Below are positions 14,781 through 64,000 of a stretch of DNA of 64,000 bases, piece after piece. Both the position numbers and the translations under genes were made by a program. The DNA is from Zygnema cylindricum. Its lineage: Eukaryota > Streptophyta > Zygnematophyceae > Zygnematales > Zygnemataceae. The number at the start of each line of letters is the position of its first letter. The first letter of the stretch is position 1. The stretch covers positions 363,409 through 427,408 of the forward strand of contig JBBHKE010001155.1 in assembly GCA_037447655.1 (NCBI GenBank), read 5' to 3'. The notes below the pieces were generated by a model. That model saw only the letters and a list, made by a program, of their open reading frames with translations, was not told the DNA's origin and searched no databases.

Positions 14781-15348
14781 ATGAATAGCAATAAGAATAT
14801 TAAGAATAATAAGAAGAGGAGGAAATGGGCAAGATACCTTTCAAAGCTTCTCAAAAACAAACTTAAAAAGAAATGGAGACAAGTACAACGGATGAATCTA
14901 AAAAAGGCAACATATCTCTACAGACCAGACTCTCAAAAATGAAATTTAGGTGACTGACAAGACCTCGAAACCAAATACCCAAACGAAAAAAAAAAGATAT
15001 ATCTGAACTCTATCCTAAAAACCTTGAAAAAACCTAAAAAACATATCTGTTCCGATACAAATTTTCATATTTAAGAGTGACAGGGTTCCAACCAAAAAAA
15101 CTATTTACTGAAATAGGTCATTTTGTGGATTTATCCAGTCTTATTAACAGCCTAATTATTGATTAATACTAAATTTTTCAAAGGATCTTCACATGCGTGA
15201 AAAGAAATGGATATGAAAAAATAGGAAGATGACGAAACAACGGGAATAAAAACAAGACAACGGGAAAAAAAAAACAAATGGAAGAGCATGACAAGTTAAA
15301 GACAAAATAGTTGCGACAGAAAAAAAACAAAAGGGGGGGAACACTGAG

Positions 15349-15457
15349 AGAATAGGACAATTGGAGCAAATATAAAACAAACAGACTGGAAAAAAAGGAC
15401 TGTAGACAAATAGGACAAATGGAACAATAGGACAAATGGAAGAGTAGGACAAAAGAA
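15349..15457. repeat. Short minisatellite, about 17 bp, in the U-box gene intron
   Basis: The motif AATAGGACAAATGGA recurs near 15351, 15409, 15426 and (as AGTAGGACAAAAGAA) 15442. It lies just downstream of the splice donor of the minus-strand gene. Confidence 0.6.
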
Positions 15458-15490
15458 CAACGTAAAACGGAGACCGGTAGAGTCACTCAC

Positions 15491-17716
15491 CTTAGCTTTT
15501 CCTCTCGCATCTCCTCCTTCTGATATGGCCACCAGGGAAGCGATGGTCAACTCACTCCTTACCATCTCTCTTCCCATATCACTTCCCGAAGCAATTAACA
15601 GAAGTGCTGCAACCGCATGAGCTTGAGCCGCTTCCTCTCCGCTTTCTACAATAGAAGCCAAAAGTGGAACTCCTTCTAACAATTGTACTTTACTTCGACC
15701 TAACGGAGACTTCAGTAAAGCAAAAAGAAACATCGCCAATACTTCCTCCATTTCGACGTCTTGTTCGGCCAATAATTCTAAAACAAGCTCAACTCCTCCG
15801 CAGGAAACCACATCAGCTCGACAAGAACTGTTAAGGGAGAGGTTAAAAAGACAAATAGTTGCTTCTTGTCTCACAGGAAGAAGCTCATCCGAACCGACAA
15901 TATCTAACAAGAGAGATATAACTCCGGAAGTTCGAATTTCCTCCCGAACGGAAACCATCGAACTGAGGTTACATAGAGCAGTCAGAGCATTATCTCTCAA
16001 AGGCATCGATTCTGCAGATTCGATAAGATGAACCAGAGGAACAACTGCTTTTCGGGCCGCAATTGAAGGCCGTAAATCACTTTCCAAAGATAAATTCAAT
16101 ATAGCCGTAACAGCATGTTCTGCAGTTTCATCGTCTAAAGAATTCATTAATTCCACTAAAACAGGAATGGATCCCAATTCAGACAGCATGACACGAGCTA
16201 TTCGAGAAACTTTCGATATCTTTCGAAGCCCTTCAGCTACTCCTCGTTTCTCCTCTTCCGACTCGCTTACCGCTCTTTCAATAAGATCAATAATTTCTTT
16301 CTCGTCGACATGATCCTCTTTTGTAGTCTTACCCGCCCTTCGTCTTGCTTTAGTAGAGTTTGGTGTGCTCGAACTTGGGGAATCTTCTGTAGTTGTAAGA
16401 CCCAAAACTGACACTCCACTACCTTCTCCGAATAAAGATGTGGAAGTCATGAGACCCTGAGCCATGCCTTCTGCGTCGTCCATAATCTCCGTAACCACTC
16501 CTAAAGTCTCGAACCTACCCCCCTCTCTCTCCCTCTCTCTCTCCCTCTCTCTTTCTCTCTCTCTCTCTTCCGTATGTCTTTGACTTCCCATTTCTCCAGC
16601 ACTCTCCAAAACAGCTGCCACAGCAGTTGCGGGCGAACAAGGAGACAAACTCGCTGAAGACGAATGACTTCTGAAAGAAGGTAATTGTCTCTCCATCTGC
16701 AGTCGGAATCCCTCGACTCTAAGACCTCTATACTGGTTTCGCCTTGAAATTAAATTTCCCCCTTGACTATTTCTGTCTATTTGTGCCCTAAATTCATCCC
16801 TTCGACTTTTAGTTGCAGCCACAGCTCTTGCAACTGCGTCTTCTCTTACATCGACTTTATCCGGTAAAACAATTCCGTGAGTTTCACACCATTCTCTTAT
16901 GACAGCTTTAGCTGCCTCATTTGGAACAACATTTATATTGGGTAACTCTTGATTTGTTTTCGGACATGTTTTATGACCTCCGGCTAGCCATCTTTCAATA
17001 TACGCTCTCTCGTATGTCTGTCCTGATGCTATAACTACAGGGTCGACCATAATGTCCAAAGATAAAGGACATATAAAATCAGGAGGTACACTTTTAGCTC
17101 CTGTAGCTTCCCATTCTCTCGCATGTTCAACCAATCGAGCTTCGGTATAAAGAGCTCCGGCAGGATCGAGATGTCCACCTTCGGCTGATTTGCCTTCTTT
17201 TGAAAATCTTAGAGTCTCGTCTTTTTCTTCTGCATGAGTTTCCATACGTTTTCCTTCCTCCGAACAACTCGGTTGACTCGATTGACTTACTTGACTCAGG
17301 TGACTCGGTTGACTCGATAGATTTCGTTGACTTGCTTGTTTTGCGAAAGCGACGGAATCGGACGGACCAAAGGAACCCAAACCTGTCCCAAAACCGCTTG
17401 TTCCTGTCGGACATATATTCAAATTGGATGACTTTAAACCGGCGGATGCTGAAATTAAAAGAGGAGCTGAATCGGATGTTGTGAATGACTGTTCTCCAGA
17501 ATTTGCTTTCAAAAAATTAGATAGAACAGGAGGTCGAGAACTGCCTCCAACTGAACTATTTCTGTTGAAACTATCCAAATCCTTGTTGTTTCTAATGTTA
17601 ACACTACTTTCGAGTAATCCTCGATGTGACTGGTGTTCCTGAGAGTCGTCGTTCCATTTCTCTTTCTTGTCCCCTCCTTTTCCGGCCCAAATTTTTTTAA
17701 AACCCTTTTTGAACAT
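15491..17716 (-). CDS. Plant U-box E3 ubiquitin ligase with ARM repeats (last exon not identified)
   Basis: One long exon encodes 742 residues from ATG at 17716. Residues 1-205 are Ser-rich and low-complexity. Residues 209-284 form a U-box: PPDFICPLSLDIMVDPVV, GQTYER, W in the IERWL helix, then CPKTNQ and a PN turn. Residues about 475-742 are ARM repeats (AVTAILNLS, NALTALCNLSS, EATICLFNLS, AVAALLLIAS). The exon ends at GKAK with a clean AAG|GTGAGT donor at 15490. The frame stays open into the intron, but that part is low complexity. Related proteins continue with a short Leu-rich tail, and I could not find that exon. U-box proteins pass ubiquitin from an E2 to a substrate, which the ARM repeats usually bind. 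The long Ser-rich leader replaces the N-terminal UND domain of some relatives. The function of this member is unknown. Confidence 0.9.
16521..16568. repeat. In-frame CT microsatellite coding Glu-Arg
   Basis: CCCTCTCTCT-type repeat inside the U-box gene, between the U-box and the ARM repeats. On the coding strand it gives an alternating Glu-Arg run near residues 383-400, in the linker. Confidence 0.95.
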
Positions 17717-34263: not shown

Positions 34264-37200
34264 ATGGTGAATAGTGTAGATGGTAAACTTACCTGGCAGT
34301 TTTCTGGCAGACACCCTTTCATGTTGTTTCTGTTACAAACCCTAATATTCTCCTCTGTTATTAGCAGTGTTATTACTCTGTCTTTTGGCGAGACTAAAAT
34401 AAAAGAACGAGATAATAAATTCAGTTCTTTGAGATTCAGAGGGAGAGATCTCCAACAGGGAGAGAGAGGTCTCCAGGAGAGAGATTCGGAGAGAGAGAGC
34501 AAAAATCAGCAGGGAGATTTGGAGAGAGACGGAGGTCTCCAACAGAGAGAGACAGAATTGGAAAAGGAGAGTTTACCGAGCAATGGCATTATTACTGAAG
34601 ATTCTTCTGACCATTTGTTTGGAAGGAATCTGTTGACAACTGAAGCAATATTAGCAACTGGAAGTACCGAAAGAGACGCTTTAGTGGTTTCCTACATTGC
34701 AGGAGAAACAGTTACGAATGAAACTTTATGTGATGGGGAAATAGCTTACTTTGTTAAATGCTCGAAAGAAAAGAGAGTGGTGAGATTGGACTTTACTGAT
34801 GGATATCCTTTGGAAGATGCTTTTCTACCAGAAAATGTGACTTTACTGGATAAGTTAGAGGTTCTTGTCTTATCTGAGACCGATATTAGTGGAAGTATCC
34901 CACCCTGGATTGGAAACCTCACAAATTTGAAGACACTAGACTTATCTTACAATTATTTTGATGGCAGCTGTCCTGCATCTATTGGAAAGCTTACAAGCTT
35001 ATCAACTTTGTTATTACATGGGAATACTGGACTTATCGGTACTCCAGAATTCTTTCTCGCACTGTTAGGGTTACCGAACCTCAAAAAGGTTGACCTATCC
35101 TCTGTTGACTTTTTAGCTTCTCCTTTACCTCCCATGGTAAGCAACTGGAGAAACCTTACCCTTCTAGCAATGGCAAGTTGCAATCTCACGGGTCCTTTAC
35201 CTCTGAAACTAAGTACTTGTACCAAACTCCAGTATTTGGACCTTAGTGCCAACAAATTTTCTGGCTCTATTCCTCTTGACTACGCTTCTATGACGAAACT
35301 GAAGTATTTAGACCTCAGTGAAAATCAGTTGTCAGGTGCTTTACCAAATATCACATGGAAACAGTTGACATACCTTGCCCTCAGTAGTAACAATTTTTTC
35401 GGCTCGATTCCGTCACAGCTTCTGGACTGTACTGCCCTTCAGGAAATCCATTTAGCTAATATCCTCATTGGAGGAGAGTTTCCTACGGCATTGGTGAATC
35501 TTGTTGATTTGACTGTCTTGGATATGGACGGTGCAAATTTTTCCGGAACTCTGCCATCTTCAATATCTACACTTGTCAAACTTGAGAAACTTCATCTTGG
35601 AAACAACAGTTTTACAGGCTCTGTCCCGGAATCTTGGACGTCTTTCAAGAATTTACAATCGGTCTTTCTACGATATAACAAGTTGTCGGGCGGATTTCCT
35701 CTCTTTCTTACGCTGATCGAAAGCCTCTCAAGCATCGATTTGAGTTATAATCAGTTTTCTGGTGCGATTCCCGCGAGTATAAAATATTTACGGAAAAGTT
35801 TGACCTCTCTGGACCTCAGTTATAACGAGTTCGAGGGTCCCATTCCTCTTACCACTATTTCTCAATTAAGTAATCTGACATACTTAGCCATTTCTAACAA
35901 TAAATTGAATGGCTCCATAGATGGTCTTAATTTCACGTCGTTGGTCAATCTTACAACTTTAAACCTCGATTACAACAATCTGAGTGGAAATATTCCGGAA
36001 AGTTTGGTTACATGTTGCCAAATTTCTGACTATTCACTCTCTTTAGATCTTTCTGGAAATCAACTCTCAGGGCAATTATCTCCTAAATTATTCAAAAATT
36101 TAGACTTTAGCGAAATCCGCCTGGCCGACAATGATTTCAGTGGACCTATTCCTAAAATGAAAGGTTCGGAGGAATTGTTTTATCTAATGCTCCAAAACAA
36201 TCGCTTTAATGGTAGTATTCCAGCATTTGAGTCGTCTGTAAATCTTGTGGAATTGAATGTTTCTGGAAACTTATTATCCGGAAAAATTCCGACCAAATTT
36301 CTCCCGAAAGACAGTATTTCTTCTGTGGACCTTTCCAATAATCTTTTGGAAGGACCTATTCCGTCCGATTTTGGAACTTACACTGATCTTGATTTACTTA
36401 TACTTCGTGACAACAAATTTAACGGTTCCATTCCACAGTCCCTGTTAAACAATACTCGTATTAATTTTCTCGATTTGCGTTCGAATCAACTTACTGGTCC
36501 TATTTCCGGAAGAAGTAGTTTTATGAATATGTCCAATGTTTATTTGGGCAGGAATTTCCTTGACGGAAGTATTCCAGAAAGTATAGCGAAATCAAGTTTT
36601 CTCCTAGAGATCTCTTTGGAGAATAATCAGTTTACTGGCTCTCTCCCGTCTAATTTCTCTTCTAATTCAAGACTGTCTTCCTTTAAAGCCTCAAATAACA
36701 AATTAAATGGAGGCATCCCTTCCAGTCTTGGACAAGTACAGACTTTAATGGAACTCGATCTTGACTCAAATTCCTTAACTGGACCTTTCCTTTCGGAATT
36801 GGGCAATTTAACAAACTTGCTGTACCTTCGTCTTCAGAAAAATCTGCTTTCGGGGGCGCTGCCTGCCGAGCTGGGGAACCTCACAAAACTTTCGGTTCTT
36901 GACCTTTCCAGCAATGCCTTCACTGGCAATCTTCCTCCCCAATTGGCCGGTCTCAGGAACCTAACTTTTTTTAACGTTTCCAACAACTTTTTTAATGGAT
37001 CTTTGCCTGGAGGCAATCTGACTCAATTTAGTAGCAGTTCATATTTGAATAATACGGCCTCACTTTGTGGATACCCTCTCACTGCATGCCCTTCTGATGT
37101 CAAAAATAGTGACAGTGGTCTTTCAACCGGTGTGGTTATTGGAATTTCTGTTGGAGCTGCAAGTTTTGGTATTCTTTTGTTACTTCTTGGAGCATTTTTC

Positions 37201-38661
37201 ATTTGGCATTTACGAAAGTATGGCCCCGACGGAGGAGAGCTTATCCTTTATCACAAGCTGGGATTTCCATTATCTTATCGGAGTATTTTGGAGGCAACGG
37301 ATAATTTTGGAGAGGCCAACCTGTTGGGTGTTGGAGGCTTTGGTTCTGTTTACAGGTGTGTGAAATTGTTTATTTGACAGTTATGTGTTCGTCTGATAAT
37401 GATGTTTGTTTGGTAGGGAATGATAGCGGATGTTTCTTTGATACTGAAAAGTTTCTTTGATGGTGTATTTTTGTTTTATAGTGAAATGTTTTGTTTGATG
37501 GAATGGTGGCAATTTTTCTATGTTGGGTTACAATAATAAGGGAACGCTTATTGGAATGTTAATAGGGAATGCTAAAACGATTAGTAACCGACTTGTTCTC
37601 ATCACTCTCAGTGGTTACCCTTTGCTAGTAAATTCAGATCTATTTGAACTATTATCTGTTCGTCATTTAAAGTTTCTCGCTGACACAGGGTTAAGGTTAC
37701 AATCTAAAAGATCATGAGCAATTAGCAAAAACAAAAGGAAAACAAATGGGAACCATGATATATCAATTTTTTGGGATACGGTTTGACTTTTTGTGTGTGT
37801 GTTTTTTCTTCTTTTGGCTACAGGGCAACGTTAGGAGATGGACAAATGGAAGTGGCTATTAAACGACTGGCAGCGGGCAGTGGACAAGGTTTAAAAGAAC
37901 TTCGGGCAGAAACAAAAACTTTGGGAAGTCTTCGACACCGAAATTTGGTGACTTTGATTGGGAGTTATACGAGCCGTAAAGAAGCACTTCTGATATATGA
38001 GTTTATTTCTGGAGGAGATCTAGATGGTTATTTGAATGGTCAGAAAAAATCATTTTCTGATTGGCAATCGAGGCATTATGTTCTTGTGGGATCTGCCAGA
38101 GGGTTTAAATATCTTCACCACGATTGTCAACCGGCGGTTATTCATCGTGACATTAAACCGGCGAATATTTTATTGGACAGCGAAATGGAACCTCGAATCG
38201 CTGATTTTGGTCTTGCAAAGGAGCTCGACATTGACACAAAATCACATTTGTCGACTGCCGTTTCCGGTACAGTCGGATATCTGGCACCGGAATACGTTCT
38301 TAAGAAAAGGTTGACGACAAAAAGTGATGTTTATGCTTTTGGAGTTGTGATTCTTCAAATTCTCACGGGAAGACGACCTACGGATAAAAGTATCGGGGAA
38401 TCTGGACTTGCTGCTTGGGTAAGTCTTTTATGGATCAAAAGAGCCGCTTTGGACGCCGTGGATCCTAACTTGAAACTTGAGGAACACGAACAAGGTCAAC
38501 TTTTGGGAGCTCTTAAAATTGGTCTTATGTGCACTTCCAGAAAACCGACAGATCGACCAACGATGGCTCAAGTTGTTCATCTTTTGGAAAATCTGGACTT
38601 GTTCACAGCTGATTCTATGGGAGAAGTGGGAGAGGAGAAGGTCGAGAAAGTAGTGCATTAA
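34264..38661 (+). CDS. LRR receptor-like kinase, two exons, about 1309 residues
   Basis: Exons 34264-37355 and 37824-38661 join in frame (TAC AG|GTGTGTG ... TACAG|G GCA). A signal peptide follows Met1 or, better placed, Met20 (MLFLLQTLIFSSVISSVITL). Residues about 40-100 are an unusual Arg/Glu/Gln-rich segment. About 30 tandem LRRs cover residues 195-920 with no obvious island domain, then a Cys cap (SLCGYPLTACPS). A transmembrane helix lies at about 955-981. The kinase begins near 1000: glycine loop GVGGFGSVY, Lys1044 in VAIK, Glu1060, HRD 1138-1140, DFG 1158-1160, APE 1185-1187. All catalytic residues are present and it is an RD kinase, so an active plasma-membrane Ser/Thr kinase is likely. 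Thirty LRRs without an island recall EMS1-type subfamily X receptors, but the ligand and subfamily are unproven. Confidence 0.93.
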
Positions 38662-45705: not shown

Positions 45706-46671
45706 TGTAGAAATTAATGTTTCCTTTTTAAGTATTCTCTAGGTATAAATTAAAATACAGAAAGAAACTCAGGTAGTCTATCTCTAACTTCTCACTCCAA
45801 CTCCCACACTTGTCGCAGTCATTGGGAAGTTGGAGTGGAAGCTAGAGCCATGGCTGCCTACTAGGCTCTCCAGAGGTTTACGGGAAAATAGATTAGTTTA
45901 CGTACCGATAAGTTTATTTACTAAGAGTGTTAATGTAAAAACCAAGATTTGATCCTGGTACCTAAGGATAGATTGGTAGCCGTTAGCCGGCAGTCCTAAC
46001 CGTTAAGTCTAAATGTAATGATATACGATGTAGGGTTTGATATTTATTTAAATATTATTACGTAAGATAATTCATTTAACTAAAACTGTTTACGGGATAC
46101 ATAGATCCATTTATGTAAAAGTACGGATTACGGTATGTATAAGAAACTAGTACCGCGCATTTATTTCTTTAAACGAAACAAATACCCCGCATGTATTTAT
46201 GACGGCTACGATTGAAATTTGCATTCAATCGGACGGCCAAAAAGAAAGCCGAGATCGCGGAAGAGAATCTCGGTGGTTTGTGGTCATCGCCACATCGGAT
46301 GACACGTGGAAAATTACGTTGGATCGCAACATCCCCGGGAAATACGGGACCGAACCCGGATATGACATGTGTCAACTTTTAGGCCATGTCGTACCATTTC
46401 CGTACACAAAGTACACTGGCAGCTGTACTTTTTTGTACGGAAGTGTAATATGATTGGTTCCGTACATCAGTAGATAGAGTTTGTGAGAGAGATAGGACTT
46501 TAAAAAAAGTGGTAGATAGGACCCTCTCTCCCATAAAGCTTCTGTACAAAAGGTCAAATTTGACCCTCCATAACTTACTGCTCATGGGAGCAAATTGAGA
46601 GATTCTTTTTGCTATCGACTCAAAAGAGTCTTGCCTTCACAGGGGTGAAGTTGGTTAGATTTTTTGTTTGC
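45706..46671 (+). mobile_element. 3' LTR of copia element B (truncated end)
   Basis: Starts TGTAGAAATTAATG directly after the polypurine tract. It runs parallel to the LTR of element A in several blocks (GTACATCAGTAGATAG, GATTCTTTTTGCTA, AAAGAGTC) but is strongly diverged. The final part of the LTR is missing where fragment C starts. Confidence 0.65.
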
Positions 46672-47408: not shown

Positions 47409-48354
47409 CCGTTAAATAAGTAGTTTTTGTACTTCAGGCCCACCAATTGCTAAACACAGTAGGTTTCCACTTTACCCCAAATGGTTGTAGTCACTGGTTG
47501 AGAGAGAGCGAGCAGCCAGGCGCTCGCCCATAGGAAGGACTAAAGGGTGACTTTGTCACTCTAAACAAAGGTTGAGTCCCACAGACCAAATCCCCGACCG
47601 GGTTGTAGAAAGCCGTTCTCTAAGTAAGTCCGCTAGAGATATAGGGTTTCATTAATACGCAAATTATCGCGTAACGCAAAAATCATTTAACTGAAACTCT
47701 TTACGACACGCATAGATACAGTTTTATGAAATGCGAAGTACCGTACTAAATTGAAACGCATAGTGCGCATTTTTTAGTACGGTTCAGATTTCATTTCGCG
47801 TCAAATCTAACGGCGCACATCATCGCCGAAATCCCGGAATGGTCACTTTGGCATTTAGTGACGTGGCATGACCTGGCGCCACGTAGAGAGATGACATTCG
47901 GTCGCGGGAATTCTGAGGAACGTACGGACGAGTGGAAAATAGACACGCGTCCGCCTAATGGCCTTGTCGTACAAAGGCCGTACAGAAGGTACATCGGCAG
48001 TAGTACTTTTTGGTACTACACAGTGTTTTGATAGGTTCGTATAGGCAATAGATAGGGGTTGTTAGAGAGAACTAGGAAAAGCTAGGACATAGGAAAAATC
48101 AGGTAGATAGCCCTCTCTCTCTTTGAGAGTTTGTATAAATTGGCATCTTTTCCACCCTATAACTTATTGGCTGGCTGGGCATTTTCAGTGATTCTTTTTG
48201 TTACAAACTCAGGGGAGTCGAGGCTGCACAAGGGTGCAGTCAAATTGTCAGTTTGCCTTTTTGGGTAGTAGTGGTTGTGGCTTGAAGTGGGTTAGTTAAA
48301 TATTATCTAAAGGCTTCCTGAATTCAGTAGTCGAATGGAGGACACAGAGTTACA
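47409..48354 (+). repeat. 5' LTR of copia element A
   Basis: Aligned to the 3' LTR from TTGTAGTCACTG onward. Its first part has diverged and lacks the tRNA-like segment found in the other two copies. TATAAAT at 48134-48140. It ends GAGTTACA; gag begins 20 bp before this end. Confidence 0.75.
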
Positions 48355-49872: not shown

Positions 49873-50800
49873 CATAAGCGGTTGGGGCATGTACATTCTG
49901 ATAGGTTGAGGGAATTAAAAAATCTTGGGGTAGTAGAAGGCATGCAAATTGGGGATAATGAAATGATAGATGATTGTAGTGGTTGTGCTCAAGGTAAGGC
50001 TCACAGACTTCCCTTTCCCAAAGCCGCCACATATAGAGGTGAGAAAGAGTTAGATTTGGTCCACACAGATATTTTGGGACCTGCAAAAGTACCTTCGGTT
50101 CAAGGAAAGAGGTTTATGATGACAATAACCGATGACTGGTCTAGGTACTCTAGAGTCTACTTTCTGAAAACAAAGTTCGAAGCATCAACTTACTTCAAAT
50201 AATATAAAGCTTGGAGTGAGAAGTTGCATGAAACCCCCATTAAGAGGATAAGGAGTGATAATGGGGGAGAATATACCTCTAACCAGTTTGAGGAATATCT
50301 GAGAGATGAAAGAGTACAGCACCAGAAAATTGTACCATATAACCCGGAACAAAATGGGGTAACTGAGGGGTTGAATCGAACACTAGGAGATAGTGTATGC
50401 AGTATGTTGGCCGACAAGAAAATAGGAAAGAGATTTTGGGGAGAAGCAATAAACTGTGCCAACTACATTAAGAATAGAGTCCTTACCTCAGCTGTAAGGG
50501 AGTGACACCTTATGAGAGATGGGTTGGGAGGAATCCAAATATCTCACACCTTAAAGTATTCGGTAGCCAAGTTTACAGTCTTGACACGGATAGGAAAAAC
50601 TGGAAACTAGATGCTAAGGGAAAACCTGGATCATTTGTGGGATATGATGAGGATGTTAAGGGATATAGAATCTATGACTTAGCAAAGAAAAATATCATTC
50701 TGGTCAAACTCTTAGTTGTCATGGATGAAGGGAAATCATTTGACCCCTTCAAATATACAAAGAAGATAAGAATCAGATTTGAGTCTGAAAGTGAGGAGAA
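49873..50800 (+). pseudogene. Copia A integrase
   Basis: HHCC zinc-binding segment (HKRLGHVHSDRL ... CSGCAQGK), then the catalytic core: HTD with Asp at 50068, SDNGGE with Asp at 50257, and Glu at 50365 in VTEGLN. The last two are separated by 35 residues, the usual D35E spacing. A TAA at 50200-50202 and a frameshift near 50500 break it. The GKPGSFVGYDEDVKGYRIYD motif beyond the core is present. Confidence 0.87.
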
Positions 50801-51089
50801 CTCGGTCGTTTCCGAAAAGGACATGAGTGAAACCGTGATTGCAAATTCAGGGGAGATCCAAGATGCAAGAGACTCACCGGAAACCTCACATTCTCCTATG
50901 GACTTCGAAGAAGTGGGACAAGAACCGGCTTCCAAGGACAGGGGAGTCGATGAGACAGTGAGAAGAAATCCAAGACTTCCATCTGTTCTAGCTTCGGAGT
51001 TTGAGGGAGGAAGGAGGAGCAGCAAAAGGATACAGGAAAAACAAGCCGCGCATAAGGTAACTAAGCTATCTCACCCAGATGAGCCTCAA

Positions 51090-51926
51090 TCTTACTCAGA
51101 GGCAGTGAATAGTCTAGAGAAAGAAAGATGGATTAGAGCCATAAATGATGAGATGGCTTCAATCATGGAAGCAAATACCTAGGAACTAGCGGATTGACCT
51201 CCACACATAAAACCTATTGGGTGTAAATGGGTATTTAAACTAAAACTGAACCCAGATAATATCGTTGAGAGATATAAGGCTCGATAGGTAGCGAAAGGGT
51301 TCACCCAAAAGGAGGGGATTGACTATGAGGAGACCTTTGCTCCAGTTTTTCCGTTCCCCTCAGTAAGGATTTTCCTCAGTCTGGCAGCAGCGGAAGACAT
51401 GGAAATCCATCAGATGGACATTAAGATAGCTTTTCTTAATGGTGAGTTAGAGGAAGAAATTTTCATGAGGCAATCCGAGGGGTTCATGGAAGAAGGAGAA
51501 GAGAGCAAAGTTTGCAGGCTCATAAAATCCTTATATGGACTGAAGCAGGCTCCCCGACAGTGGAATAAGAAACTTGATGAGTTTCTCACCAATCTGGGAT
51601 ATATCCGTATCAGCTCTTACCATTCTATCTATATGTTTGAAGATGAGAATGGTGTCATTTTTATTACAATTTATGTGGACAATTTGCTTGTGTTAAGCAA
51701 GTCTTTGGAGAAGATCAATAGGCTAAAGAAAGATCTTAGGGGCAGATTTGATATGAAGGATTTAGGGGAGGCAAAATATATTTTGGGGATCCAAATGGAG
51801 AGAGATAGGTGGAAGAAGATCATTAGACTTATTCAGAAAGAAGCAATAGGAAATATGCTTGAGAAATTCCAGATGGAAAATGCTAACAGTTGTACCACTC
51901 CCATAGACTTGAAAAAAAGTAAGTGA
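51090..51926 (+). pseudogene. Copia A reverse transcriptase with altered active site
   Basis: RT blocks in order: ERWIRAINDEM, GCKWVFKLKL, VAKGFTQKEGIDYEETFAPV, MDIKIAFLNG, SLYGLKQAPRQWNKKLDEF, then YVDN at 51672-51683 where YVDD is expected. The second catalytic aspartate is therefore Asn (GAC to AAC, one base). Stops occur at 51180, 51196 and 51285. It ends in a stop near 51926 with a frameshift before the RNase H. Confidence 0.88.
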
Positions 51927-52687: not shown

Positions 52688-53701
52688 TGTTGAAATAAGT
52701 AGTTTTTGTATTTTCTAGGTCTAAGTTAATTAGCGGAAAACATATAAAGAAAATGTAGGCAGCCTGCCTCCATCTCTTCTCTCTTACCCCCATACTTGTT
52801 GTAGTCACTGAAGGAGAGAGAGAGCGATGGAGCCATGGTTGTCTCAGCTCCATAGGAAGGACTAAAGGGTTGACTTTAAGTCACTCTCAACAAAAGGTTG
52901 AGTCCGGCAGGACTCGAGCCCCCGACCGGCAGAGCGCGGCGTAGCCGTTAGCTCTAACCAGTCTGTGGTAGAAGTCCGTTAGGAGATATAGGGTTTCATT
53001 GAAATTTAAATTATTGTGTAATGCAGAAATCATTTAACTGAAACTCTTTACGACACGCATAGATACAGTTTTACGAAATGCGAAGTACCGTACTAAATTG
53101 AAACGGATGGTGCGCATTTTTTATTACGGCTCAGATTTCATTTCGCGTCAAATCTAACGGCGCACATCATCGCCGAAATCCCAGAATGGTCACTTTGGCA
53201 TTTAGTGACGTGGCATGACCTGGCGCCACGTAGAGAGATGACATTCGGTCGCGGGAATTTTGAGGAACGTACGGACGAGTGGAAAATAGACACGCGTCCG
53301 CCTAATGGCCTTGTCGTACAAAGGCCGTACAGAAAGTACATCGGCAGTAGTACTTTCTGGTACTACACAGTGTTTTGATTGGTTCGTACAGGCAGTAGAT
53401 AGGGGTTGTGAGAGAGAACTAGGAAAAACTAGGACTTAGGAAAATTTAGGTAGATAGTCCTCTCCCTCTTTGAGAGTTTGTATAAATTGGCATCTTTGCC
53501 ACCCTATAACTTATCGGCTGGTTGGTCGTTTTCAGTGATTCTTTTTGCTACGCACTCAAGAGAGTCCAAGCTGCACAAGAGTGCAGTCAAATCGTCAATT
53601 TGCCTTTTTGGGCACTAGTGGTTGTGGCTTGAAGTGGGTTAGTTAAATACTATCTAGAGGCTTTCTGAATTCTGTAGTCCAATGGAGGACACAGAACTGC
53701 A
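52688..53701 (+). repeat. 3' LTR of copia element A
   Basis: 1014 bp, TG...CA ends, TATAAAT at 53481-53487, GA-rich run at 52814-52825. Its last 20 bp repeat the gag start (ATGGAGGACACAGAACTGCA). Contains the antisense tRNA-like block at about 52910-52958. Confidence 0.9.
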
Positions 53702-57865: not shown

Positions 57866-59872
57866 TAATTCAGCATCCGGCGAGTTTCAGGTCTATATCT
57901 CAGTTTGAACACTGGTGTTATTAGCTTTCGGTTGTTGTTTGGGATTAAGGTGAACCTTTTGGGAATAAGTTTTCGGTTTGGGATTAAGATCTGCCGGTTT
58001 TGAGGTTTAGACGTCGGTTCTTTATCTTACTATAGCGGGATTCCTGATCTTATTTTTTCTAATTTAGGATCTAGACGACGTAGGGATTAAGACCTCGGGT
58101 TTAGGGCTTAAGACGTCGGTTTGGGATTAAGACCTCTAATTGGTATTTAAACTACGTTTTAAATCCAAATTGTGGTTTCGGTTCTTTATATCACCGTCGT
58201 CTTATTCTCTGTTTCTAACTTTCCTTCTTTTTCGCCTTTTCTTGTCTGAAAAAAATAAATAAAAAATCTATTAAAAACATAAATTTTATTTATATAAAAA
58301 AAAAATCATTTTGTTTTTGTTTTCCGCTTTTTCTTCCTTTCAATCTTTGTCTCTTATTCTGCTGCCACTATATTTCTTGGCTTTGGTGTTAAACCTAAAT
58401 TTTGCATCAAATTTATGGTTAATCTCCAGAATTAGGGTTTGGCTGCAGAATTCGGGATTTGGGCTCCAGAATTAGGGATGCAGCAGATCTAGGATTTAAT
58501 CTTTTTTATTCTAGTCCTTAGGGCGATATCATTCTATTTCTTGGCTGCAGATTTGGAGTTTTGGCCGTCTAGAATTAGGGTTTGGCTTTTGAATAAGGGT
58601 TTTCCAAGTGGAATTAGGGTTTGTTGTTGGCTTTCGATTATTGTGGTCACAAGTTTGACTCTATATCTGGACTTTGAGCGGCCTACGACTTAATTCTAAC
58701 ACACTTTTCCTATCTATCGCATTTGTGTGTCTTATTGGTTGCTTTTCTTCCACACGAACTCTTTATTTTTTTCCTTCCATTGTTTCCCTAAAATTCCACG
58801 GCGTACATCTTCACGGTACGGACGGGTCTCGCGGAGGGTTTTTTTGGAGAATTTTGCTCGGAGCGAACTTCATGGAACGAATTTTATCCCAGAGAGCTAT
58901 GATAAACCCGACTTGCTTCGAACAAGTTTGGTTCACCCTTAGTGCTCACCAGAGTACTAAAGGTGTTTGTAAGTAGTTGATGCCTTGCGATGTGAAGCGT
59001 TTTGATTTAGAGTGGACACTCGTGTAGTGGATCGGTGTGGAGGGGTTCCATTGTGAACCTTCTTATTGAGAATTTGCATTTTCCGCCTTTCCCTACATGC
59101 CATCTGGCCCTAAGTGGCCTTCGATTTTCGTGTGACTATTTGGAGTGGGATTCCTTGCTAGATCTTGCCGTGGGTGGCACTCTGTAGACCTTTTCCCGGT
59201 TGTGTTGTTGTAGATCTGCACCCAAGGGCGCCTGGATAGCAATTTTTTTGTTTTTATAGATCTGGCCCTTTGGCCTTGCCAACTGTTTGCAGGGTAGAGG
59301 TTTTGGTAAACCGACTTTTTCCTAAACATAACCATCAATCCTTGATAGTGACTGAGTGTGTTGATTGGACGAGTGGATTGGTCTGACACGTGTTGCATCT
59401 CGATTAGGTCGTGCAAAACATTTTATTTTCGTAGTTAGGGTTTCTCTTTTGGTTCATGCCCTCGGATTGGGATAACCTTCCTTTTGAATCCGGTTCCACC
59501 CGAGGTGGTACACTTTATCGTCCTCCGCAGTTAGATTCTTCGGATCTTCCGGAATAGTTGACCACATCCGATCTGGTTGCGGATCGCAGATCGCCGTCAA
59601 CGCAGTCTGGTCTGACATCTACGTCATCATTGTCCTCAATTTCATCTAGGTCATACTTACAGGGGACCGAAGAAGACTTTAAAGAGGAAACCTTTGTTGA
59701 AATAAGTAGTTTTTAGTATATTTTCTAGGTCTAAATTTATTTGAAAAGAAAATGTAGGCAGCCTGCCTCTATCTCTTCTCTCTCTCTCGCCCCCATACTT
59801 GTTGTAGTCACTGAAGGAGAGAGAGAGAGAGCAATGGAGCCATGGCTGGCTCAACTCCATAGGAAGGACTAA

Positions 59873-59892
59873 AGAGTGGCTTAAGCCACTCT
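59873..59892. repeat. Near-perfect palindrome in the solo LTR
   Basis: AGAGTGGCTTAAGCCACTCT pairs with itself over the full 20 bp. The copy in element A's 3' LTR is degenerate (GTTGACTTTAAGTCACTCTC). Confidence 0.8.
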
Positions 59893-59914
59893 CAACAAAA
59901 GGTTGAGTCCGGCA

Positions 59915-59965
59915 GGACTCGAACCCCCGACAGGCAGAGTGCGGCGTAGCCGTTAGCTCTAACCA
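59915..59965 (-). other. Antisense tRNA-like block (A- and B-box motifs) in the LTR
   Basis: On the minus strand: TGGTTAGAGCT (59965-59955), then GGTTCGAGTCC (59925-59915). These match tRNA A-box-end and B-box signatures at usable spacing. A full cloverleaf is not convincing: the acceptor ends do not pair. The same block is in the 3' LTR at about 52910-52958. It could be a tRNA-derived remnant or a Pol III promoter-like element. Confidence 0.4.
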
Positions 59966-62263
59966 GTCTATCGTAGAAGTCCGATAAGAGATATAGGGTT
60001 TCATTACTATTTAAACTTTTGCAATGTACTAGATTCATTTAACTGAAACCCTTAACGCCACACATAGATACAGTTCTACAAAATACGAAGTACTATACTT
60101 GTTTGAAATGGATATCGCGCATTTTGTTTCGACAGTGAAACAAATATCGCGCAAGTATTTATTACGGCCAAGATTGAATTTCGCGTCAAATCTAACGGCG
60201 CACGTCATCGCCGAAATCCCGGAATGGTCATTTTGGCATTTAGTGATGTGGCATGACCTGGCGCCACGTGGGAAGACATCATTCGGTCGCGGGAATTCCG
60301 AGGAGCGTACGGACGAGTGGAAAGTGGACACACGTCCACTTAATGGCCTTGTCGTACAGAGGCCGTACAGAAAGTACATCGGCAGTAGTACTTCCTAGTA
60401 CTATACAGTTTTGTGATTGGTTCGTACAGGCAGTAGATAGGAGCTGTGAGAGGGAATTAGGAAAAACTAGGACTTAGGAAAATTTAGGTAGATAGTCCTC
60501 TCTCTCTGAGAGTTTGTATAAATTGGCATCTTTGCCACCCTATAACTTATCGGCTGGTTCGCCGTTTTCAGTGATTCTTTTTGCTATGGACTCAGGGGAG
60601 TCCAAGCTACATAGGAGTGCAGTCACATTGTCAGTTTGACTTTTTGGGCATAAGTGGTCGTGGCTGAAAGTGGGTTAGTTAAATACTATCTAGAGGCTTC
60701 TTGTATTCTGTAGTCCAATGGAGGACACAGAATTGCAACCTTTCCACCTTCTCACACTCAGAGGTTCCCTACCAGCCCAGCTTTGGCACAACCAGCGCAT
60801 CCTCTATTTTACGACATGCCTTCCTTTTCAGAAGGATTAATGGGTAAGATACAATTTTGCTTTTCCGAATTAAAGGACACCATGTCCTTATCAAATTTCC
60901 GGATGTTATACAACACGGAAATGAGGGACCTAGCCTTTAGATATCAAGATAGGTTTTACCTCCGTGTCGCCTTTTCCTTTCTCGATCGATACCTCCGTAG
61001 TATGGCCCTCACTCTTTACACTCACAAGTACGAGGATGTTACGTGGCCTCCTTTGCGGGGTTACCAAAAGTCCTAGGCGAGGTGGATATCCGATATCACG
61101 CTGCGAGACTGGTTGTATTAGATGTTAACGGGGACGAGTTGTATCCCAGCTATCCCTCAGGTTCCTTGTTAGTATGCAGTGGCTGCTCGAGCGGCAGTCC
61201 CAGCAAGAGCGGGGGGAACCATTCCTTTACGTGACCCTCTCTCAGTCATGTTTGACATCCTTCAAAAGGAGTACAGGATGCAAAATCCGGATTAGATCAG
61301 AGAGTTGATGAACTTCAAGCGTAGGCCAGGTGAAACTGCTCTTGCCTTGCAAGCTCGGATGGAAACTCTGCGAGAGGCTTTAACGGACCTCATGTCCGAT
61401 ACGAAGGCTGTCTAGAAATTTGTGGGACATCCAAGTCCATCAAAGAGGTTTATCCAAAACCACCTCAGCCAGATGTATGAACTGAAATTCACCTTTGAGC
61501 AAGCGGCTCAATATGCGGTAGAGTATGAGATGCAGACATCGTGGTGGGACGCCCATGAGCGGTTCAAACCTGCTCACAGGGAACCGGCCAATCCATCTCC
61601 TCCTCCACCAAAAATCCTATGGCCCCCTAATAAGCCTCAGAAGACGCTAGCCATTGGAACTCCAACACCCGTTAGTCCCGGAAACCGAATGTGTTTTTGA
61701 TTTGGAAAGACCGGGCACGATGCCTGCATGTGTCTTGATAAGGTGGCCACTTGCACTCATTGCCACCAAAAGGGACATTGTGTCCATCGGTGCCAAATCA
61801 AAGACCCTAATTTCACTTATCAAAATCAGATAAAGAACGGCGGAATTCTTGCCCGTTTCGCGAATCCAGACACTCCGCCTAAGGAGACCGAAAAGGAGGA
61901 AGCTCCTCCTAAGATCTTTCATAGAGAGAGAGGGAAGGCCGAGATTCAAGCTACGATGGCGGCCATGATGAAAGAGCAATTTGCAACTTTCATGGCGGAA
62001 ATGAAACCCTAATTTACTGGGATGGCTAGGACCGTTGTGCACATGTCGTTGTTGGCTGGGCAAACCCTTCGGGATTCCACCGTCTAACAACGTGTGGCCA
62101 TATTTGAAAAGGGCTCAGCAGAGCATAACCGAGTGGGCAAATTACAAAATTCTCGTGTCTCACTCTCATTTGCAAAAGAGCCTCTGCCTTCCCTATAGGA
62201 CACCGCTCATACCATCGCGGCAGAGGCACTAACCATTTTAGATAGCACTATTCATGAGGCTCA

Positions 62264-62800
62264 TTGAGTGAAGGAGCGATTAAGTATTTTTTAGCGATGT
62301 TAGAGGATGTACCGAAAGCCTTTCCCCTCGTTGAGGAGGTCGCAGCGGGAGCCGCTTTGAGGGCTTTGCAATTAAGCCCCCGTCTTTCAGCCGTTCAACC
62401 CGTTACTACGGAAGAGCGTCGTAATCTCGTTCCCCTTATCAGTTTCTTTGAGAACTCTTGGGGATCATTCTCACTGAACGGTGTACACCCCACTCTTCCT
62501 CTCATAAACACCGGAGACAAACCCGTGATCCTCGGATCCGGTTTTGCGCTCAAGCTTGGTCTGACAACAGATAAGCTTCAAGCTACAGTCACCCAACTTC
62601 TTACTTCGACAGGGACAACGGAGCCGGTCCTATGAATCACAAAGGACCCGCTCATTTTTCGATTTCAAATAGGAACCGAAAATGAGTCCGTTGAAATTGT
62701 TATTCATGCATTAGTCACTAAATGCAATGATTACGAGTGTTGGGCCAAGATGTTATATTCCTAGTCGGTGGTGGTGTGGACATGCACGACTATATATTTT
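62264..62800 (+). pseudogene. Retropepsin-like aspartic protease of the retroelement
   Basis: Contains HPTLPLINTGDKPVILGSG then FALKLGLT, which matches the retropepsin pattern of hydrophobic residues, D-T/S-G, and a downstream FAxxLGL. The Asp is replaced by Asn (codon 62507-62509). After a stop at 62633-62635 and a frameshift, the flap-distal VLGQD-VIF-GGGVDMHDYIFSYRL segment (62734-62812) continues in another frame, like the ILGMDFL region of retropepsins. It would process Gag-Pol in an active copy; this one is dead. Confidence 0.65.
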
Positions 62801-62825
62801 CTTATCGACTAACTGACTTTTCGAA

Positions 62826-63128
62826 GTGCAAAATCTGTCTTCCCCTTATTTCAGCCCGTCGACCTTTGCCCACTATGGCTCACTCGGCTACGGCTCTTCC
62901 GGCATTTTTGGGGAACCTAGTTGTGGAGGAAATTTTCCACTCTCTTTGGCTGAAGAGATCATACCGGATAGTTCTCCCTTACTCGAGCTCTTTGCCAAAC
63001 CGGGTTTTCTTATCAATTCTCACAAATTTGACAATAATTATAAGTCCACATTATCTATTCTATTAACAACTTTCCCTCCTATACCTAGAGTTGCAACAGA
63101 TCCTTCAGGTTTCTTGCCTATCAGTTAG
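62826..63128 (+). pseudogene. Linker between protease and methyltransferase, no recognised domain
   Basis: Open for about 100 codons in the methyltransferase frame (MQNLSSPYFSPSTFAHYG through PSGFLPIS), ending at TAG 63126-63128. Proline- and serine-rich, no motif recognised. It is probably the inter-domain region of the polyprotein. Confidence 0.4.
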
Positions 63129-64000
63129 AAGCCCGTACAACTGAGTATTCATACGGACGGGGTCGTTATTTTCGATTTATTCGTCGAGATCGGAACTTCA
63201 CTATTCTCATGTTTACGGAATGGTCTCCTCATCCGTCACTACTATGTAGTAGAAATTGATGCATTAGCTAGAAAAGCACAATTGCACCATTGTAATCTCT
63301 TGCGTTCACAATATCCAGAATTTTTTCCAAAGTCACTGTTTCTACATATGCACACTGCTCTTCCCTAAGACATTTGCATCTTTAGTTGTCATCATCTATG
63401 GGATGTTGAACCGATAAACCTTGTTTTTGGAGGGTGGGAGTGTAAAGGCATGTCTCGGGCCGGCAAAGGTCTTGGTTTGGCGGATCCCCGTGCCAAATTG
63501 TTTTCTGAGCTTTTCAAGGTCCTTCATTTTCTTCAAACCATGGCCAAGCTTGTCGGATGCATTTTAGAGAACGTCGCCGCTTATAATGATCCTCGGCCTA
63601 CAGTTCTGGCTCACTATAAGCGCTTAGAACACCTTATCGGACCCCCGCTAATTATTGATGCCGCTCGGCATAGGTCCCTTGCACATCGGGTTTGCTCCAA
63701 ATAAACGAACGTAATCGATGTTGGTAGTCTTCGTGAGGCTAATTTGTTTGTAAGACCTCCCACTACAGACATTACGACAGCTTTGCTTCCCTTTCACCAT
63801 GTCGAGTCATGTGTCCAAACTGACTGCCCTCCGAATTACAACATTAATGTACCTGGCCAACCACCTAAGGTCCTTCCTACTTTAGTGTCTTACCCTAATT
63901 CCCATGCATACTCTTATAACGGTCTAGGAATGCTCCGGAATAATGTCACTAGAGAGTTAGAGGAGCCTACCGCCACAGAACGGGAGCATCTCATGCATTT
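63129..64000 (+). pseudogene. C5-cytosine DNA methyltransferase domain of the retroelement (runs off the window)
   Basis: Motifs appear in the C5-methyltransferase order in one frame. Motif I is VVIFDLFVEIGTSL (63162-63203; usual core DLFAGIGG). The acidic motif-II strand is VVEIDALARKAQLHH (63246). Motif IV is LVFGGWECKGMSRAGKG with Cys at 63441-63443 in the catalytic position (usual PCQ), followed by DPRAKLFSELFKVL. Motif VI is LENV (63564-63575). A motif VIII-like DAARHRSLAHRV follows at 63657, then the short recognition region. Late motifs are VLPTLVSYPNSHAY (63870) and EEPTATEREHL at the edge, matching the conserved TxRExxRxxGFP block. The enzyme family moves a methyl group from S-adenosylmethionine to cytosine C5. 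Stops at 63366-63368 and 63702-63704, and TAG before it, show a decayed copy. It lies directly after gag and protease in the same orientation. Confidence 0.85.

Follow-up and report, generated by a model that had tools for sequence, protein, structure and literature searches.

The window (the whole 64,000-nucleotide stretch of DNA analyzed here) ends within a cytosine-5 (C5) DNA methyltransferase domain that follows the remains of a gag and a protease. This arrangement raises the question whether a retrotransposon carries its own methyltransferase, and what such an element would do with it. By its sequence, this stretch carries a disrupted member of a family of Ty3/gypsy-type LTR retrotransposons.

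Methyltransferase domain of the window copy

The translation of positions 63129-63998 (with X at two TAA codons) matched the Pfam profile DNA_methylase with E = 5.6e-4 and 19.9 bits, just under the cut-off of 22. Although this score alone is marginal, the similarity is beyond chance, since phmmer returned a single match among 1057 candidates, P0003, with 42% identity over 99% and E = 6.5e-59. The N-terminal part of P0003 resembles, by eye, the end of a retropepsin; the AlphaFold model of this protein was too poor for use (pLDDT 44.5). With an uninterrupted relative as query, the window copy was also recovered from its own genome (C865:426456-427637, i.e. window 63048-64229; 65% identity, E = 3.9e-170), with two TAG and two TAA codons inside. 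The phmmer match and this recovery confirm the C5 methyltransferase domain of the original prediction. Motifs I, IV, VI, and VIII had all been claimed for it; in the window copy, IV and VI read GGWECKGMS and ENV, and I and VIII are damaged (Table 1).

The domain had further been described as lying downstream of a zinc-knuckle gag and a protease, in the same orientation and in the gag frame. Order and orientation hold, as the copy is collinear with another copy of the family (C449), both regions being broken. The shared frame applies to the main gag and methyltransferase pieces but not to the protease part, which frame changes place in the two other frames. Neither the window gag (P0002) nor the protease piece gave a Pfam gag or protease match; both were identified because the copy is collinear with the C449 frames from gag to the PHD finger.

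Table 1. Features of the window copy (positions in the window)
Feature	Position	Strand	Basis
Leader and gag start, 84% identical to C449	58225..59695; gag N-terminal residues from 59438	+	
Nested repeat of ~1 kb inside gag, CCTTT on each side, not the element's own	59696..60736	+	
Remaining gag region, with stops and frame changes	about 60737/60738..62291	+	tblastn collinearity with C449 gag
Paired zinc-knuckle motifs, one in-frame TGA	61692..61793	+	translation
Protease region (LINTGDKPVILG near 62507), two frames	62294..63000	+	collinear with C449
DNMT3-type cytosine-5 methyltransferase domain	63048..64000, match continuing to 64229 beyond the window end	+	profile, phmmer, genome search
Methyltransferase motif I, damaged (DLFVEIGT vs DLFAGIGT)	63162..63197	+	translation
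Motif IV GGWECKGMS, Glu-Cys replacing Pro-Cys	63429..63455; catalytic Cys codon 63441-63443	+	
Motif VI ENV	63567..63575	+	translation, alignment
Motif VIII, damaged (HRVCSK-stop-TN; HRVRSKWTN in uninterrupted copies of the same subfamily)	63684..63710	+	

Structure and decay of the window copy

The window copy starts at or before 58225 and is disrupted by stops, frame changes, and the nested repeat. In tblastn, from 60737 onward, it stayed collinear with C449 as far as the PHD finger, which lies past the window end at 68151; 7 of the 13 aligned pieces contain stops, and the frame shifts several times. A B-type end (see the repeat layout below) was located at 68177-68370, with terminal ACGACA as in the family, and is followed by copia-like sequence. 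The A repeat was found on neither side of the copy; at a guess, this could be due to loss of A2 through recombination between B1 and B2. Among the relatives fetched, C449 and C2602 lie closest to it (pS 0.17-0.19). The window copy itself is broken and unable to act.

The nested repeat is probably a solo LTR of another family. Relatives of it were seen elsewhere in the window at 52688-53701, 47475-48354, and 46027-46651 (84%, 79%, and 65%, respectively). The segments 59719-60602 and 69282-70157 (~69% alike) were considered as the terminal repeats of the window copy and rejected: 59696-60736 is the nested repeat of another family, and gag starts before it. The insertion can therefore not be dated from its repeats.

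Directly after the B-type end, a copia fragment lies on the minus strand (L009:7800-8452; ~68391-69043 in window coordinates, past the window end), with matches to gag_pre-integrs (E = 9.9e-8) and Pol_BBD (E = 1.1e-8). Features inside the window comprise (i) a copia-type remnant whose open frame encodes a retroviral polymerase SH3-like domain (50502-51182); (ii) a probable LRR receptor kinase gene, in which a kinase frame comes after an LRR frame of 1037 aa (34264-38661); and (iii) a U-box and armadillo-repeat protein of 806 aa (15296-17716, minus strand).

Copies, domain order, and relatives of the family

The genome searched comprised 352.8 Mb in 2689 contigs. A search with PF00145 gave at least 123 scored of 782 candidates, all above the cut-off, and a search with the methyltransferase of contig C1344 gave at least 105 scored matches of 1925 candidates, with 65-100% identity and the window copy included. 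These copy counts are lower bounds, in which two haplotypes of one insertion could count double. Sixteen stretches were fetched, i.e. the window copy and 15 stretches around 13 other copies, chosen non-randomly and mainly by long open frames.

The domain order of the family is gag, protease, DNMT3-type methyltransferase, RT, RNase H, DDE integrase, and PHD finger, and the Ty3/gypsy order RT - RNase H - DDE integrase was present in family copies. The longest open frame, 2395 codons in L010 (contig C1344), is stop-free from gag to PHD. Its pieces matched the Pfam profiles CCHC and Asp_protease (both under the cut-off), DNA_methylase, RVT_1, RT_RNaseH, Integrase_H2C2, and rve, and the PHD finger in which it terminates was read by eye. 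PHD scored above the cut-off in C829 and C1915 and under it in C544 and C1374; CCHC scored above it in the same-genome copy C1915. Asp_protease_2 stayed under the cut-off in the copies of this genome and exceeded it in the relative P0004. The PHD finger shares a frame with the integrase and resembles those of PHF12, DPF3, KDM5A, and BAZ2B. With RT, RNase H, and integrase downstream in same-genome copies, the proposal that these retrotransposons bring along a C5 methyltransferase of their own stands. A viral-contig scan returned 13 pattern stretches, none of which was confirmed.

Matching named proteins came from Closterium sp. NIES-53, Closterium sp. NIES-54, and Klebsormidium nitens. In the Closterium protein P0020, a single frame spans methyltransferase, RT, and RNase H, and P0003, P0004, and P0010 (ENA contigs) have the order protease-methyltransferase or methyltransferase-RT, with 35-57% identity to the copies of this genome. 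In a tree with four bacterial rows, no host DNMT3, and open deep forks, K. nitens P0017 grouped with the family domains against the bacterial rows. P0011, labelled as belonging to an Obscuribacterales bin, matched the retrotransposon domain (43% over 99%); its contig is probably misbinned. A gene-model artefact may underlie the link between P0014 and a copia gag. The named relatives come from Closterium and Klebsormidium, so that a streptophyte alga is the probable host rather than a land plant, and the earlier land-plant framing, including novelty among land plants, is unsupported.

According to a preprint on Zygnema cf. cylindricum SAG 698-1a, the PHD family of this strain exceeds that of the other Zygnema strains at least 9-fold; the word PHD is absent from the main text of the published version. 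Retroelements with a PHD finger could be behind the enlarged PHD family of this strain.

Could the domain belong to a DNMT gene of the host, or to bacterial contamination, that lies by chance beside retroelement debris? The bacterial bin label of P0011 would fit a contaminant. However, the same order recurs in several copies, Closterium has the methyltransferase-RT-RNase H frame, and the C1344 copy runs from gag to PHD without a stop. This explanation, whose probability we consider negligible, is refuted by the uninterrupted copies. The enzyme is also not a host MET1, CMT, or DRM, as originally argued, judging from its domain profile (see below), the element order, and the many copies.

Repeat layout and insertion route

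Split repeats in the layout A-coding-B-A-B were found in each of the four other copies whose two ends were both available (C829, C1915, C449, and C1344). In C829, A measures 1385 bp and B 190 bp; the A repeats of C1344 (931 bp) are 100% identical, and in C449 part of A has undergone rearrangement (460 bp at 94%, the remainder at 68%). The four copies have TG...CA ends. Perfect 4-bp target duplications flank three of them, namely AAGG (C829), CCCT (C1915), and TTGG (C1344); the flanks of C449 match at three of four bases (TCAT vs GCAT). A run of G precedes B1, and GC joins B1 to A2. The sequence fetched for C544, a Pro-Cys copy (see below), contained no repeat. As no A repeat was found for the window copy, the layout evidence rests on the other copies.

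From this layout we infer that linear cDNA with B-GC-A repeats would be closed into a two-repeat circle, which the integrase would open at one B-GC-A junction. Opening at this junction would yield exactly the observed A-coding-B-A-B layout. A DIRS element was considered and rejected: the family has an rve (DDE) integrase and 4-bp target duplications, whereas DIRS elements have a tyrosine recombinase and no duplication. Together with the TG...CA ends and the 4-bp duplications, the repeat layout suggests a circular insertion route for a DDE integrase.

Enzyme type and selection

When a profile of eight family domains was compared with solved structures, DNMT3A (9.6e-22) and DNMT3B (1.2e-18) were nearest. 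HhaI (1.2e-10), DRM2 (4.8e-8), DNMT2 (4.2e-5), and DNMT1 (0.55) ranked lower, and the 60 rows listed included no CMT structure. Alignment with DNMT3A also extends to the C-terminal LLG block.

By motif IV, the fetched copies form two subfamilies, Glu-Cys and Pro-Cys, which are 42% alike. Glu-Cys occurred in 15 of the 22 rows with readable motif IV in the retrotransposon-type clade (a retrotransposon location being established for part of these rows), as opposed to Pro-Cys in 31 of 31 other methyltransferases (P0022-P0052). On the tree, the E/P switch in motif IV requires two changes; motif IV is missing from the gene model of K. nitens P0017. The difference between Glu-Cys and Pro-Cys would fit a module retained for nucleic-acid binding or as a structural part of Pol, with catalysis lost or changed at least in the Glu-Cys subfamily. 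Uninterrupted copies nevertheless keep the catalytic Cys, ENV or ENI, and HRVR, and we regard such a loss or change of catalysis as unlikely. A conserved Glu-Cys motif IV would test the fixity of Pro-Cys in C5 methyltransferases.

The methyltransferase domain is under purifying selection. Among the uninterrupted Glu-Cys copies L010, L016, L019, and L022, pS was ~0.8 and pN 0.11-0.16, with the exception of the close pair L016/L019 (pS 0.029, pN 0.009, w 0.314). Most synonymous distances were saturated, so w is given for some pairs only: it was 0.085-0.117 when L010, L023, and L004 were compared with one another (three pairs; L023 and L004 carry stops), 0.117-0.383 among Pro-Cys copies (one of which, L002, has a stop), and 0.356-0.625 for pairs including the broken L009 or L018. 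Compared with the domain, constraint was tighter on RT, RNase H, and integrase (pN 0.04-0.09), slightly weaker on protease and gag (pN 0.16-0.21), and weaker on the spacer between methyltransferase and RT (pN 0.25).

Methylation footprint and possible role

Plants silence transposons by cytosine methylation. Relative to the bases at which C449 and C2602 agree, and with codon position uncontrolled, C-to-T changes in the window copy affected 83 of 520 CHG, 74 of 679 CG, and 126 of 1838 CHH positions (CHG > CHH, p = 1.4e-9; CG > CHH, p = 0.001); A-to-G changes affected 101 of 3022. For C-to-A/G changes, CHG sites stood out with no clear excess (p = 0.19), and CG sites with a slight one (p = 0.02). 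The C-to-T pattern points to earlier methylation of the window copy at CHG and CG sites, as expected from host silencing, which it fits at least as well as any action of the element itself.

We consider it moderately probable that, as predicted, the DNMT3-type domain of this Ty3/gypsy family methylates the newly made DNA of the element itself, either ahead of insertion or in the course of it. Going by the domain families, the DNMT domain would act on circular cDNA or on the insertion site, whether released by the protease or still part of Pol, and the PHD finger would guide the integrase to chromatin with particular histone H3 tails. As judged from sequence, the element likely writes chromatin marks through its DNMT3-like domain when copying itself, and its PHD finger is predicted to read such marks.

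Methylation of the own copy is supported by the domain order, copy number, similarity to DNMT3A/B, selection, repeat layout with duplications, and recurrence of the order in other sources. The following points speak against it: (i) in the published yeast test, no methylation was seen with a Klebsormidium gypsy DNMT3, an outcome that its authors call inconclusive (PMC5890265, main text); (ii) one subfamily has no motif IV Pro; (iii) the CHG-then-CG decay fits host silencing; (iv) no A repeat was found for the window copy; (v) the AlphaFold model of P0003 has a pLDDT of 44.5; (vi) the protease matches in copies of this genome are under the cut-off; and (vii) the C449 duplication matches at three of four bases. 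Alternatively, the module could target the host, methylating the insertion site or nearby chromatin, with the PHD finger picking the site, so that a new copy settles in silent chromatin with less harm to the host. A PHD finger of the PHF12, DPF3, KDM5A, and BAZ2B kind in the integrase frame would suit this explanation, and the Discussion of de Mendoza et al. raises effects on insertion-site chromatin (PMC5890265); we rate it as possible, if somewhat unlikely. The roles originally suggested for the enzyme, namely marking the DNA of the element, concealing it from the host, or changing methylation in the host, are candidate functions.

Going beyond own-copy methylation, the preferred reading, we tentatively propose, with rather more doubt than confidence, a streptophyte-alga gypsy lineage that combines a DNMT3 writer, a PHD reader, and a DDE integrase, inserts from a two-repeat circle instead of linear cDNA, and includes a large Glu-Cys subfamily with a changed active site and possibly a changed target. 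Methylation usually silences transposons, a relation that would be inverted in an element bringing along a de novo methyltransferase and preserving it. A large family with recent insertions (C1344, with its identical 931-bp repeats) would make the purpose of the enzyme testable.

Comparison with known systems

Chlamydomonas REM1 is an algal Ty3/gypsy element that, like the family described here, has a PHD finger; it differs in that the PHD lies in an inverted ORF and that it is not known to have a methyltransferase. Plant DRM, CMT, and MET1 are also C5 methyltransferases, and DRM is a member of the DNMT3 lineage. With the family profile, DRM2 and DNMT1 score far below DNMT3A/B. DRM domains are rearranged (PMC5890265, main text), whereas the family domains keep the usual motif order.

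According to the main text of de Mendoza et al. 2018 (PMC5890265), a Dnmt3 occurs in a K. nitens gypsy element with DIRS-like repeats (KnitGypsy-Dnmt3), and DNMTs also occur in DIRS and LINE elements of Symbiodinium. The yeast test of the K. nitens gypsy DNMT3 gave no methylation, a result that the authors call inconclusive. A passage in PMC12344493 restates the 2018 finding, naming the element Copia. SymbioDIRS-Dnmt3 resembles the family here in having a Dnmt3 in Pol and A-coding-B-A-B repeats, and its DNMTs methylate CG in yeast (PMC5890265, main text). It has a tyrosine recombinase, in contrast to the DDE integrase and 4-bp target duplications found here.

KnitGypsy-Dnmt3, as described in the main text of PMC5890265, is likewise an LTR gypsy element with a non-rearranged Dnmt3-type domain in Pol, DIRS-like repeats together with gypsy domains, purifying selection, and several copies. 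The word PHD is absent from that main text, whereas a PHD finger lies in the integrase frame here. Measured against the same text, the family here further differs in its Glu-Cys motif IV subfamily, more than 100 scored places, and worked-out target duplications and junctions. No other report of the gypsy-Dnmt3 kind in a zygnematophyte was found in the open-licence literature. The kind is already published (KnitGypsy-Dnmt3, 2018), and the window element probably extends this charophyte case; the branch described here is larger and differs in part, through its PHD finger, the Glu-Cys form of motif IV, and a repeat layout implying that a two-repeat circle is what inserts.
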